Shown here piece after piece: positions 44,454 to 52,979 of a DNA stretch of 64,000 nucleotides. The stretch is taken from NCBI GenBank assembly GCA_020052415.1, contig JAGVPB010000040.1, positions 62,001 through 126,000 of the forward strand. The letters run 5' to 3'. The position numbers were made by a program, and so were the translations under genes. The stretch comes from Bacteroidales bacterium (lineage in GTDB: Bacteria; Bacteroidota; Bacteroidia; Bacteroidales; JAADJA01). Position 1 is the stretch's first letter. Every line of letters starts with the position of its first letter. The notes below the pieces were generated by a model. It saw only the letters and a program-made list of their open reading frames with translations. It had not been told where the DNA came from and made no database searches.

Positions 44454-45752
44454 ATGAAATCTTCAGAAATAATTGTCGGTTTGGACATTGGAACAACCAA
44501 AATTGCCGCTATAGCCGGACGCAGAAATGAACATGGAAAAATCGAGATTCTTGGCCACGGCCGAACAGAATCTATCGGTGTTAAACGTGGCGTAGTTTCG
44601 AACATTGAAAATACAGTAAATTCAATAACCAAAGCCATTGAAGAAGCGTCGCAGAAAGCGGGCATCAACATCAAATATGTTAATGTAGGTATTGCAGGCC
44701 AGCATATTAAAAGCCTGCAGCACAGGGGCGGGATCATACGTGAAAACTATGATGATGAGATCAGCAAGGAAGATGTGGAACTGCTCCTGAACAATATGTA
44801 TAACCTCAACATGAGCCCGGGTGAAGAGATCATTGATGTGATTCCACAGGAATATATTGTGGATAATGAACAGGGAATTAAGCAGCCTGTCGGAATGCTC
44901 GGCAACAGCCTGGAAGCCAATTTCCATATCATCATCGGTCAGACCACTGCTGCGAAGAATATTTTCAAATGTGTTACCAAAGCCGAGTTGGAGGTTGTGG
45001 ATCTTATTCTTGAACCTATAGCTTCCGCAGAGGCAGTTTTAAGCGACGAAGAAAAAGAAGCCGGTGTAGTACTTGTGGACATCGGTGGCGGAACAACCGA
45101 CATTGCCATCTTCCAGGAAAACATCATTCGCCATACCTCCGTCATCCCATTTGGCGGGGATGTAATCACCGATGATATCAAGGAAGGATGCACGATTATC
45201 CGCAAACATGCTGAAGAATTGAAGGTCAAATTCGGCTCGGCACTGGCCAGTGAAAACAGGGATGATGAAATTGTGGCTATTCCTGGTTTGAGAGGCAGGG
45301 CGCCTAAAGAGATCAGCCTGAAAAACCTGGCAAGCATCATTCAGGCGAGGATGGAAGAGATCATTGAGCATGTATATTATGAAATTAAAAACTCCGGATA
45401 CGAGAAAAAGCTGATAGCTGGAATTGTACTGACAGGAGGCGGTGCACTGCTCAAAGACCTCATTCAGCTTACCGAATTCATTACAGGCATGGATACCCGG
45501 ATCGGCTACCCGAATGAACATCTGGCCAATAATGTTTCGGATGAGCTTGCCAGCCCGATGTATGCCACCGGCATTGGACTGGTGATCGAAGGTATGAGAA
45601 GGTATTATAAAGAGAATGAAGCCATAATTGAAAAAGAAAAAGGAAAAAGCAGGGAATCCGAAGAACCAACAGAGAAGCCGGAAGCTTCAAATTACAAACC
45701 GTTGAGCTTCCTGAAAAAAATACAGGACTTCTTTGAGAAGGATGATGTTTAA
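44454..45752 (+). CDS. ftsA: Cell division protein FtsA
   Basis: 432 residues. Actin-like ATPase that ties FtsZ to the membrane. VGLDIGTTKIAAIAG (phosphate 1), VLVDIGGGTTDIAIF (phosphate 2) and GIVLTGGGALLKDL (adenosine) are clear. The C-terminal membrane-targeting helix is PLSFLKKIQDFFEK after a charged linker (about 385-415). In most relatives ftsZ follows directly; here it is almost 800 bp away because of an inserted gene. Confidence 0.96.
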   Translation: MKSSEIIVGLDIGTTKIAAIAGRRNEHGKIEILGHGRTESIGVKRGVVSNIENTVNSITKAIEEASQKAGINIKYVNVGIAGQHIKSLQHRGGIIRENYDDEISKEDVELLLNNMYNLNMSPGEEIIDVIPQEYIVDNEQGIKQPVGMLGNSLEANFHIIIGQTTAAKNIFKCVTKAELEVVDLILEPIASAEAVLSDEEKEAGVVLVDIGGGTTDIAIFQENIIRHTSVIPFGGDVITDDIKEGCTIIRKHAEELKVKFGSALASENRDDEIVAIPGLRGRAPKEISLKNLASIIQARMEEIIEHVYYEIKNSGYEKKLIAGIVLTGGGALLKDLIQLTEFITGMDTRIGYPNEHLANNVSDELASPMYATGIGLVIEGMRRYYKENEAIIEKEKGKSRESEEPTEKPEASNYKPLSFLKKIQDFFEKDDV

Positions 45753-45805
45753 CAAATAAAGGATCTATAAAATCCATTCAGTAGTAATAAAATTGGTTAA
45801 TTAAT

Positions 45806-45840
45806 ACCACGGAGACACTTAGAACACAGAGGAACACAGA
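45806..45840 (+). repeat. Left CACAGAG-rich inverted repeat of the GxxExxY unit
   Basis: Reads CCACGGAGACAC..., then AACACAGAGG and AACACAGA, ending at the start codon of the GxxExxY gene. Its imperfect reverse complement lies right after that gene at 46254-46290. Confidence 0.7.
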
Positions 45841-45841
45841 A

Positions 45842-46252
45842 ATGATGACTCAAAAATATATAAATGAATTATCATACAAGATAATTGGATGTGCTATTGA
45901 AGTGCACAAACATCTTGGTCCCGGATTGCTCGAATCAGTTTATGAATCCTGTTTTATTGACGAATTGAGAACCGCTGGATTGTTCGTTAAATCTCAGATT
46001 TATATTCCGGTGTTTTATAAAGGAAAGAATTTGGGTGGAAATTTAAAGCTGGATTTACTTGTTAATGATATAATTATTGTAGAAGAGAAGGCAGTGGAAC
46101 AAATGATTCCCTTATACAGAGCTCAACTTTTATCATATCTGAAACTTGCAGTAAAACCAAAAGGGTTGCTAATTAATTTTAATAGTGAAAATATAAAAGA
46201 ACAGCTTGTTTCACTTGTTACTGAAGAGTTTGCAAAGCTGCCTAAGGTATGA
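45842..46252 (+). CDS. GxxExxY-family protein
   Basis: 136 residues. The name-giving motif is seen as GPGLLESVYE near residues 27-36, followed by a restriction-nuclease-like core (LKLDLLVNDIIIVEEKAVE) and QLLSYLKLAVKPKGLLINFN. The D...E-x-K arrangement recalls the PD-(D/E)xK fold. Members occur in many copies in Bacteroidota and environmental genomes; the biological role is unknown. The gene sits between ftsA and ftsZ and is bracketed by inverted CACAGAG repeats, so it probably arrived as a unit. It is complete and intact. Confidence 0.9.
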   Translation: MMTQKYINELSYKIIGCAIEVHKHLGPGLLESVYESCFIDELRTAGLFVKSQIYIPVFYKGKNLGGNLKLDLLVNDIIIVEEKAVEQMIPLYRAQLLSYLKLAVKPKGLLINFNSENIKEQLVSLVTEEFAKLPKV

Positions 46253-46253
46253 C

Positions 46254-46290
46254 CTCTGTGCATCTCTGTGATCTCTGTGCCTCTGTGGTG
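46254..46290 (-). repeat. Right CACAGAG-rich inverted repeat of the GxxExxY unit
   Basis: The plus strand carries four CTCTGTG units and ends CTGTGGTG. Read on the minus strand it begins CACCACAGAGGCACAGAG and matches the left arm at 45806 imperfectly. A related solo copy lies at 52938-52979. Confidence 0.7.
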
Positions 46291-46544
46291 AAAAATTACG
46301 ATATATTAAGATAACTAGTGCGTGTAAATAACTGTTTGCAATTAATCAGACCTGAAAATAAATTTTACTTTAAATTTCAGGTTAAAGGAATGAATAAGTC
46401 AATTTCGGATGGTGTTAAATAAAAAATTAAAATGCCGTTTTTGCCCTGTTATCAAGGGAAATAATTAACATTCATTTTGTTGATAAAAAAAAGGCCGGCA
46501 ATGAAATATAGTTTTATTAAGTAATAATTTTAAAAACAAAAAAT

Positions 46545-48110
46545 ATGGATAGCATGCTTAAGTTCGATTTACCTAAGAATCAATCCTCTATCATAAAAGT
46601 TCTCGGAGTTGGTGGAGGTGGTAGCAATGCTGTTTCCCACATGTATAGCCAGGGAATACAGGGTGTTGACTTTTTTATTTGCAATACGGACGCCCAGGCC
46701 ATGGAGGCCAGTCCGGTTCCTACCAAAGTACAGCTTGGCTCAAAAGGCCTTGGCGCGGGATCATTGCCATCTGTTGGTAAAGAAGCTGCGATTGAGAACA
46801 TCGAGGACATCAAAATGATCCTTGAGAAAAACACCAAAATGTTATTCATCACTGCCGGTATGGGCGGTGGTACCGGGACAGGCGCTGCACCTGTCATCGC
46901 TGAAACTGCAAAGAGCCTAGGAATCCTTACCGTCGGGATAGTAACTATTCCATTCCTTTTCGAAGGAAGAAAACGAAAGCTTCAGGCGGAGTCAGGACTT
47001 GAAGAACTGAGAAAATATGTGGATACCCTCCTGATCATCTCCAACGACAAGCTTAGGGAAGTCCATGGCGATCTCAAACTTTCGGAAGCCTTTCAAAAAG
47101 CCGACAACATCCTGACGGTGGCAGCCAAAGGAATCGCTGAGATCATTACAGTTACAGGCTATATCAATGTTGATTTCGAGGATGTGAAAACTGTGATGAA
47201 AGACAGCGGCACAGCCATCATGGGATCGGCTACGGCCGAAGGTGACAACCGGGCCATCCGTGCGGTTGAAGAAGCGCTTTCCTCTCCCCTGCTCAACGAC
47301 AACAGGATCAACGGTGCAGATAATATCCTTCTATATATTGCCTCCGGCGATGAAGAAATTACTATGGACGAGGTGACGGAAATAACGGAATATATCCAGA
47401 ACGAAGCCGGCCAGAGCGCCGAGATCATCTGGGGTAACGGTAAGGATAATTCACTCGGTAATAAAGTAAGCATCACCCTTGTTGCAACAGGATTTTCAGG
47501 TGATAAAGAAACCGGAATTGTAAAGACAGTAAAGAAGATAGTCCATCCGCTGGCCGACGTAAAAAAGGATGAAAACAAAGAAAAATCTCGCATTCTCGAA
47601 CCCATCACTGAAATTACGCTGGTAAGCCAACTCAGGAAAGAGCCTGAAATAAAACAGGAAGAAACAATTACACTCGTTTCTGAACCTAAGGAAGAAATAA
47701 AAACGGCAGAGCCTGTTTCTCATTTCAGGACTTTCGAACCCATTTCTACACCCGAAAAAAAGTCTTCCGTTACAGAAGAAAAGAAAGTTGAGGATCGCAA
47801 TACCTCAAATCCGGTTGAACTGGTGATAGCAAAAAACAACAGCTATTCCGTTGAACTGGAGAAAGAAGAGATTGAAAAGAAAGCTTCCGAACGGATCAAA
47901 AAGCTGAAAGACCTGAGCATGAAGCTTAAAACTCAGAATGAGATTGAGGAGCTTGAAAAAACACCCGCTTATATCCGCAGGAATGTTGAATTGTCAGAGG
48001 TGAAACATTCATCTGAGAGCGAAGTCCCGAATTACACCTTATCGGAAAACGACGACAAGCAAATTGAAATAAAATCCAACAATTCCTTTCTGCATAAGGA
48101 CGTGGATTGA
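46545..48110 (+). CDS. ftsZ: Cell division protein FtsZ
   Basis: 521 residues. Tubulin-like GTPase that forms the Z ring. GGGGSNAV near residue 23 and GMGGGTGTGAAP near 105-116 form the nucleotide site; NNILTV-like DNILTVAAKG and the T7 loop (GYINVDFEDVKTVM) complete it. Beyond residue 320 is a linker of about 200 residues rich in E, K, P and S, with a coiled stretch (EKEEIEKKASERIKKLKDL), then TPAYIRRNVEL and a final NNSFLHKDVD. That double end motif is the Bacteroidota form of the FtsZ tail that binds FtsA and others. The inserted unit upstream means it may depend on a promoter in 46291-46544, though I see no exact -7 box. Confidence 0.96.
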   Translation: MDSMLKFDLPKNQSSIIKVLGVGGGGSNAVSHMYSQGIQGVDFFICNTDAQAMEASPVPTKVQLGSKGLGAGSLPSVGKEAAIENIEDIKMILEKNTKMLFITAGMGGGTGTGAAPVIAETAKSLGILTVGIVTIPFLFEGRKRKLQAESGLEELRKYVDTLLIISNDKLREVHGDLKLSEAFQKADNILTVAAKGIAEIITVTGYINVDFEDVKTVMKDSGTAIMGSATAEGDNRAIRAVEEALSSPLLNDNRINGADNILLYIASGDEEITMDEVTEITEYIQNEAGQSAEIIWGNGKDNSLGNKVSITLVATGFSGDKETGIVKTVKKIVHPLADVKKDENKEKSRILEPITEITLVSQLRKEPEIKQEETITLVSEPKEEIKTAEPVSHFRTFEPISTPEKKSSVTEEKKVEDRNTSNPVELVIAKNNSYSVELEKEEIEKKASERIKKLKDLSMKLKTQNEIEELEKTPAYIRRNVELSEVKHSSESEVPNYTLSENDDKQIEIKSNNSFLHKDVD

Positions 48111-52937: not shown

Positions 52938-52979
52938 TCTCTGTGTCCCTCCGTGCCCTCCGTTTCCCCGTGGTAAAAT
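52938..52979. repeat. Solo CTCTGTG/CCGTGG element
   Basis: Reads CTCTGTGTCCCTCCGTGCCC and on to CCCCGTGGTAAAAT. It resembles the right arm of the GxxExxY unit (46254-46290) including the GTGG ending, but no gene is attached. Confidence 0.55.

Follow-up and report, generated by a model that had tools for sequence, protein, structure and literature searches.

GxxExxY genes framed by inverted word arrays suggest a repeat-associated nuclease element, with one copy between ftsA and ftsZ of a Bacteroidales bacterium

Why does a complete GxxExxY gene, closely framed by inverted repeats, lie between ftsA and ftsZ, and do gene and repeats belong together as one spreading unit? In the window, by which we mean the whole 64,000-nt stretch of DNA that was analysed, both neighbours are intact: ftsA at 44454..45752 on the plus strand (TIGR01174, E 2.6e-113) and ftsZ at 46545..48110, also plus (TIGR00065, E 2.6e-108). 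The initial annotation had reported almost 800 bp between them with a complete GxxExxY gene, and this was accurate. The gap is 792 bp and holds a 136-aa open reading frame at 45842..46252 (+) that matches TIGR04256 (E 2.5e-39; 134.3 bits, cut-off 35) and PF13366 (E 1.6e-37; 128.8 bits, cut-off 22). On direct reading, the left arm (45806..45840, +) is made of the words CACGGAG, CACTTAG, CACAGAG and CACAG and stops just 5´ of the start codon; it was also matched by a genome-wide word pattern (C46:107808-107831). The right arm (46253..46290, minus strand), read directly and recovered by word-pair matches, is the inverted CACCACAGAGGCACAGAGATCACAGAGATGCACAGAGG and begins one base past the TGA. The arms that had been described as hugging the gene are thus imperfect CACAGAG copies in opposite orientations on its two sides. 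The word pair CACAGAGN{0,20}CACAGAG matched at three overlapping places in the window, each of them in the right arm, with 0.00 expected from 100 shuffles. An ungapped repeat search at the locus listed an AT-rich pair only and not the gapped arm pair, and the gapped score of this pair, 23, equals, but does not exceed, the top score from shuffles of 74 loci. What makes the pairing of the window arms convincing is their many relatives, not the window locus by itself. The gene-less relative of the right arm that had been placed further along the window is likewise real, and word-pattern matches locate it at 52938..52979 (-) as a single arm, ACCACGGGGAAACGGAGGGCACGGAGGGACACAGAG, with no second arm visible.

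To follow the history of the insert, FtsA was searched in 60 relatives, among them 16 genomes of the same genus, 13 of which had a readable ftsA-ftsZ spacer. These spacers were 93-361 bp long in 12 of the 13, and the thirteenth was ~200 bp up to the visible ATG. The GxxExxY gene was present in none of the 13 readable siblings and in none of 15 further order-level loci, so that the search for empty sites suggested in the initial annotation found an insert that is not conserved at this place. The insertion is recent and intergenic, and was probably tolerated. Neither target duplication nor clean excision was seen, and neither can be defined here because the related genomes are different species with diverged spacers. 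The sibling spacers could not be aligned except for the stretch before ftsZ, where a TTAACATTCATTTTGTTGATAAAAA-like block (window 46465-46492) and the bases just 5´ of the ftsZ start are the sole part that aligns across the 13 same-genus siblings; this block is perhaps the ftsZ promoter or leader.

The limits of the unit emerged from comparison with a copy (L126) at an unrelated site in genome G038, which belongs to another family. The genes are 80% identical and the two arms 79% and 80% identical, and identity is 53% in the 100 bp beyond either side, with 50% expected at random. On this homology the whole unit, comprising left arm, gene and right arm, covers 485 bp (45806..46290, +), and, judged by the alignment, copies at unrelated sites share the boundaries of gene plus arms. 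L126 lies on contig C7 of G038 and its ftsA on C18. FtsA of the window genome and G038 is only 55% identical, against about 80% for the unit, which makes transfer of the unit between families what would be the simplest reading. Among the loci used, the proteins closest to the window copy are those of L126 and L116, both from other families of the order; the next-closest four (L131-L134) come from records named Bacteroidetes or uncultured bacterium. The outer ends of the window unit read ACCAC...GTGGTG, with neither a GTAG nor a CGTC tag. No DDE or HUH transposase is encoded in the 485 bp, the sole gene matching PF13366 only among Pfam families, and no obvious target duplication was found by eye at other sites.

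We then asked how general the arms are. The window genome (4.67 Mb in 94 contigs) has seven GxxExxY matches, and by eye all seven genes have short-period repeats on both sides. The words are CACAGAG at the window gene, CACATAG at two genes, and CACAAAG, CGCAAAG, AATTCGTG and CGCAGATTACGC at the others. Five of the seven look inverted, the nearest arms of L005 and L007 have the same orientation, and L006 and L010 fall under the 99% shuffle threshold of the test that was applied to all loci, in which up to 150 bp on each side are compared by gapped local alignment. Two sets were examined, mostly draft or metagenome assemblies. For the order set, 113 matches in 60 genomes gave 82 loci (the genome's own seven, the retrieved loci, and full-length ones away from contig ends); an open gene was detected in all but L083 and L084, leaving 80. 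The second set (genome_contigs) comprised the best 80 of 580 relatives, 79 after removal of L162, in which no open reading frame was detected; by record title, these 80 represent many other phyla too, with one archaeal record, and many are metagenome assemblies. Loci with a flank below 100 bp or with N were dropped (5 of 80 and 4 of 79).

Inverted arms were detected at 44 of 75 usable order loci and 42 of 75 usable loci of the second set, and arms in either orientation at 51 and 48. The flank comparison that had been suggested for other GxxExxY genes hence gave inverted arms at 86 of 150 usable loci compared with 13 of 212 neighbour genes (4/60 and 9/152), and mismatched pairs of upstream and downstream flanks passed at ~3%. 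As a positive control, loci of RAYT genes passed the same test in 15 of 24 usable cases. Among the loci under the threshold (24/75 and 27/75), several have arms by eye and others do not. An arm consists of a few words, typically three to four, that fit C[AG][CT]NNA(G or TT) and mostly follow each other at 8-11 nt; together the two arms can fold into a hairpin within a single strand. Assigning words by the most frequent 7-mer was too noisy and was discarded. Rfam gave no match at gathering score for the arms and hairpins of 20 chosen loci.

The repeats also occur as dispersed copies without the gene, often as two-armed hairpins. Hairpins with two arms and no longer than 140 nt were present in 28 of 52 loci fetched for gene-less arrays, with 0.2 expected in shuffles; these 52 loci had been selected for word arrays, and the expectation refers to the two-armed arrangement there rather than to a genome-wide rate. 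Folding gave z below -2 in 26 of 32 folded gene-less loci (median z -5.8). One gene-less locus, L372, has outer ends identical to those of the gene-bearing L078 unit. Another, L373, retains the first 17 GxxExxY codons between L078-type ends (88% identity, E 3e-6) and by its sequence is an internal-deletion derivative of a gene-bearing unit. In genome G205, a hairpin without a gene is repeated in tandem together with its flank, with a period of ~168 bp (L234, C12:218971-220353).

Across the window's phylum (taken as Bacteroidota), the arrays and the gene occur together. TIGR04256 matched in 122 of 247 sampled genomes, with up to 12 matches each. A three-word CAC..AG pattern had 491 matches in 74 genomes, compared with 17 matches for the reversed pattern; these counts include gene arms, and overlapping matches are counted repeatedly. 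CAC..AG arrays were found in 69 of the 122 genomes with the gene versus 5 of the 125 without it (P 2.6e-21, computed from hand-copied match tables whose totals agree). Within families, 58.4 are expected, and the observed 69 was reached in none of 20000 permutations. Many of the arrays are gene-less, and some genomes without the gene hold other words. In 18 gene-bearing genomes the CAC..AG matches exceed twice the number of genes, for example 47 matches and 4 genes, and none of the 16 listed array places (17 matches) in G243 lies at its one gene. Word by word among the 60 relatives, copies away from the cognate gene were seen in 16 of 17 genome-word pairs (within-genome permutation p 0.001, two gene-adjacent genomes having been added by hand). 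CGCAAAG pairs occur also in 23 of 54 genomes without the cognate gene, and their link to the gene, taken for this word by itself, is weak (p 0.009 over all 60 genomes, and not significant, at 0.11, among gene-bearing genomes).

Arms vary from locus to locus but go with the protein, also among copies inside a single genome. Protein identity correlated with arm similarity across 156 loci (Mantel r 0.34, and 0.21 for pairs below 65% protein identity; 0/2000 permutations in each case). For the 137 pairs within a genome, r was 0.46 (1/5000 permutations), and for those below 65% identity 0.32 (4/5000). As the correlation holds inside single genomes, host composition is not its cause. The words fall into two classes, ending in AG or ending in ATT. 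ATT words accompany 14 of the 15 scored proteins that have NFG near the C-terminus, and AG words 75 of the 79 others (P 2.5e-12), in a post hoc test, the pattern having been noticed before testing; 60 of 154 loci have neither word pair and are outside the test, and the genome_contigs set by itself holds no scored NFG protein to compare. In a later set, all 13 NFG rows and all 22 others fit the code (35 of 38 rows were scored and three were not). This set is mostly two orthologous groups at one site; its 13 NFG rows are nine distinct places, and 7 of the 22 others have no detected NF motif and were counted as not NFG.

A single site was traced across a genus: 150 species in the genus of G304 were searched for the GxxExxY unit of that genome together with the flanks of the unit. 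Readings of the site come from 40 stretches chosen among the listed matches and from 30 loci used for a tree; the two sets overlap, and the 30 tree loci are the best-scoring matches, in which occupied sites are over-represented. Eight of the 40 stretches have a 2-bp spacer (TA|ATG) and 11 a spacer of 22-30 bp without repeat. An AG-word unit is present in 19 of the 30 loci. Six genomes (G378, G320, G392, G313, G309 and G397) have a CACGAATT-like unit with an NFG-type protein at this site, three (G351, G359 and G350) have other ATT-word units, and in G346 and G367 the gene is absent and only remnants are left. In these last two (L307 and L309), a CCTGCAAGGTTTTGAAAACCTTGCAGG-type palindrome lies between the arm remnants, where the gene is missing. 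At L338 and L339 (G404 and G360), the spacer is ~1.9 kb and starts like an AG-word unit, and no GxxExxY open reading frame was found in it. On the tree built from these 30, six changes of the AG-word state are required, five or more of which are placed by well-supported branches, and sister loci joined with good support can differ, as G080 and G367 do. We therefore consider that some loci look old and vertically inherited more than freely mobile, with recurrent gain, loss or replacement.

Could such turnover come about passively, with homologous recombination between dispersed repeats of other origin swapping gene-bearing and gene-less copies? The outer ends shared by gene-less L372 and gene-bearing L078 would fit this, as would the occurrence of three kinds of unit, empty sites and gene-lost states at one intergenic site across species. 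Passive swapping leaves unexplained, however, both the association of repeats with the gene and the difference in words by protein subfamily, and the eight stretches with a 2-bp spacer, which may or may not be the ancestral state, offer no repeat for recombination. We regard this explanation as very unlikely.

Some genomes hold the repeats with no cognate gene. G051 (92% complete) has 18 CACATAG matches and no GxxExxY match, with one 60-nt hairpin at no fewer than five of nine fetched places, and G033 (70% complete) has 8 CACATAG matches and no GxxExxY match. For CGCAAAG, G047 has 19 matches and no GxxExxY match, G032 has 93 matches and weak partial family matches only, and G026 has 117 matches and a gene of another word; small numbers of repeats without a cognate gene are also found in other genomes. 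G026 and G032 are, with G052 (106), the genomes of heavy CGCAAAG pair load, and in G052 several copies lie at the ends of contigs and may be what interrupts the assembly. Two candidate traces of the gene were looked at. A weak match in G215 (L236, E 0.009) lies in an open reading frame that we judged by eye to encode a chemotaxis-type protein, and G215 stays an exception. A 36-residue remnant-like match in G051 (L355, E 2.5e-5 for one query, with 156 queries run) is no more than suggestive of a GxxExxY gene remnant. Persistence of the repeats thus does not strictly depend on a cognate gene in the present genome: they can survive its loss, or another agent can spread them as well.

One such agent would be another enzyme that owns the repeats, for instance a resident RAYT, with the GxxExxY genes as passengers. 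PF01797, the enzyme family tested, has matches in 13 of 14 tested genomes, including G051 and G033 with their repeats and no GxxExxY match. From 53 PF01797 matches, the 25 strongest with loci were taken and one was dropped as short, leaving loci from 11 of the 14 genomes. None of these 24 usable loci has a three-word array, compared with 31 of 78 and 39 of 76 GxxExxY loci (0.2 and 0.4 expected by chance). The RAYT genes instead carry REP-like palindromes of their own, of GGGCTTTAGCCC, AGGCTGAAGCCT and GTCCCGTTAGGGAC types (L255-L282, in G000, G007, G013, G018, G026, G028, G032, G033, G045, G051 and G052), which are quite different, so that two repeat-associated enzyme systems exist side by side in one genome. 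G047 lacks a PF01797 match despite its 19 CGCAAAG matches, the arm words follow the GxxExxY protein, and the seven PF01797 transposase matches of the window genome are all on contigs other than the window's. RAYT ownership of these repeats was rejected, and ownership by another enzyme in general is highly improbable.

What kind of protein is GxxExxY? The window protein has G27, E30, Y33, D70, E80 and K82 (numbering starts at the second ATG, following L008 in alignment A1), all invariant in 15 diverse members of the alignment; the members were chosen for the GxxExxY motif, so that only D70, E80 and K82 are a free test. The fold test that had been suggested for the nuclease core gave a predicted model (pLDDT 96.6, pTM 0.89) with a PD-(D/E)XK-type fold, and the closest solved folds are Cas4- and lambda-exonuclease-like. 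The best match is SSO0001 (Z 9.5, rmsd 4.0 over 101 residues), which we take to be Cas4, and the Foldseek list is led by lambda exonuclease (E 9e-4). No solved structure is clearly related to the window protein by sequence. In PADLOC the window protein was unmatched and 4 of the 15 members had weak matches to Cas4 profiles; in PHROGs the window protein was likewise unmatched, and a few of the 15 relatives had weak matches. An excerpt of one report has a GxxExxY call where another program gave cas4 (PMC8934634). Among Pfam families only PF13366 was matched at E up to 0.001, and not PF04754 (Rpn). GxxExxY genes were found on 8 of 72,556 plasmid records with one query and at three viral-contig loci with two peptide patterns, both lower bounds; the window protein used as a single query found no relatives on viral contigs. 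The viral-contig genes have CACGAAG-type arms at L211 and other short repeats at L212 and L213.

A nuclease of this kind might have nothing to do with moving repeats. The arms could be slippage-grown repeats or regulatory hairpins, such as terminators or autoregulatory sites, next to a defence or toxin gene that favours safe intergenic places. The word arrays do look slippage-prone, L234 shows tandem amplification of a whole hairpin, the rarity of GxxExxY on plasmid records and viral contigs would fit, and the part of a 2023 report available to us describes Rpn proteins, PD-(D/E)XK nucleases of another family, as toxin-antitoxin defence systems (PMC10327210). Hairpins of this origin would not, however, account for within-locus arm pairing far above that of mismatched pairs, for homology that stops at the arms at unrelated sites, or for a word class that tracks the protein subfamily, and PADLOC left the window protein unmatched. 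This explanation is unlikely.

The reading that we favour, at a probability of roughly 0.7 for the model as a whole, is a repeat-associated, REPtron-like element run by a RecB/Cas4-like PD-(D/E)XK nuclease. We are more confident that the gene, linked to its arms, spreads as one unit than we are of the model as a whole. This had been the central proposal of the initial annotation, and it gained support, since neither of the two findings named there as refuting it, flanks of other GxxExxY genes without such repeats or an insert conserved at ftsA-ftsZ across a whole family, was obtained; the movement itself we infer. In the mechanism that we propose, the nuclease would recognise its own words, probably in an extruded or single-stranded hairpin, and cut at or near the hairpin, after which host repair would copy or join the unit elsewhere. 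Gene-less hairpins would be miniature elements served in trans, of which at least one would have arisen when a gene-bearing unit lost its interior, and the NFG subfamily would read ATT-ending words and the other proteins AG-ending words. We know of no case in which a PD-(D/E)XK nuclease fold drives transposition-like spread alone, and that GxxExxY itself is the sole mobility enzyme is a tentative proposal, to which we give slightly less than even odds. The same caution goes with the broadest form of the idea, in which GxxExxY proteins would be the mobility enzymes of a new class of element widespread in bacteria and archaea, moving their own unit, spreading hairpins in trans and following a two-class AG/ATT code; we would bet on it a little short of evenly.

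The closest likeness is to RAYT/REP systems and REPINs. As described in the available portions of PMC3116915 and PMC8266576, these combine an enzyme gene amid repeats, dispersed gene-less doublet hairpins and co-evolution of enzyme and repeat, and are passed on mostly vertically within species, with lateral transfer among distant hosts. As in a REPtron, the GxxExxY gene is flanked by inverted repeats that are also dispersed as gene-less hairpins. The enzyme differs, a PD-(D/E)XK nuclease (Pfam match to PF13366 only) here and an HUH/Y1 tyrosine transposase in RAYT, and so do the repeats, which are arrays of 7-8 nt words here and, in the accessible text of PMC3733652, a palindrome with a GTAG tag in REP. 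TIRYT genes and their TIRtrons, in the same part of that source, resemble our unit in that the gene lies inside inverted repeats, some of them also repeat families, and differ in that the enzyme is a tyrosine transposase and not a PD-(D/E)XK nuclease (PMC3733652). Rpn proteins (YhgA-like, PF04754) are likewise PD-(D/E)XK nucleases, with horizontal spread suggested for them and with one paralog inserted independently more than once in the same place; they belong to another Pfam family, RpnA has little sequence specificity, and flanking repeats are not mentioned in the portion of the source on which this comparison draws (PMC5350276).

Two further comparisons bear on the parts of the unit. The closest solved folds of the GxxExxY model are Cas4/RecB-like exonucleases. 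Cas4 has a four-cysteine iron-sulphur cluster; the window protein, at ~135 aa, has two cysteines and so cannot hold a four-cysteine cluster, and the neighbours of its gene are ftsA and ftsZ. MITEs are short gene-less elements with an autonomous parent element. The gene-less hairpins here are alike in sharing ends with a gene-bearing unit, and in the apparent origin of L373 by internal deletion; they differ in that the unit has no DDE transposase and no target duplication was seen. By these comparisons, the RAYT/REP-like way of life would be what is known, and the enzyme class and the repeat architecture what is new. In the open-licence literature searched we found no association of GxxExxY with repeats, GxxExxY occurring there in two papers as a bare name and PF13366 in one, and none of six typical repeat strings.

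Collectively, these data suggest that bacteria widely carry a type of spreading element that seems not to have been described before, and they suggest where a large group of intergenic repeats may come from. The GxxExxY family gains a probable function, a probable DNA substrate and a recognition code that can be tested, in which protein subfamily goes with word class. If this is true, the RAYT/REP way of life would have evolved a second time, independently.
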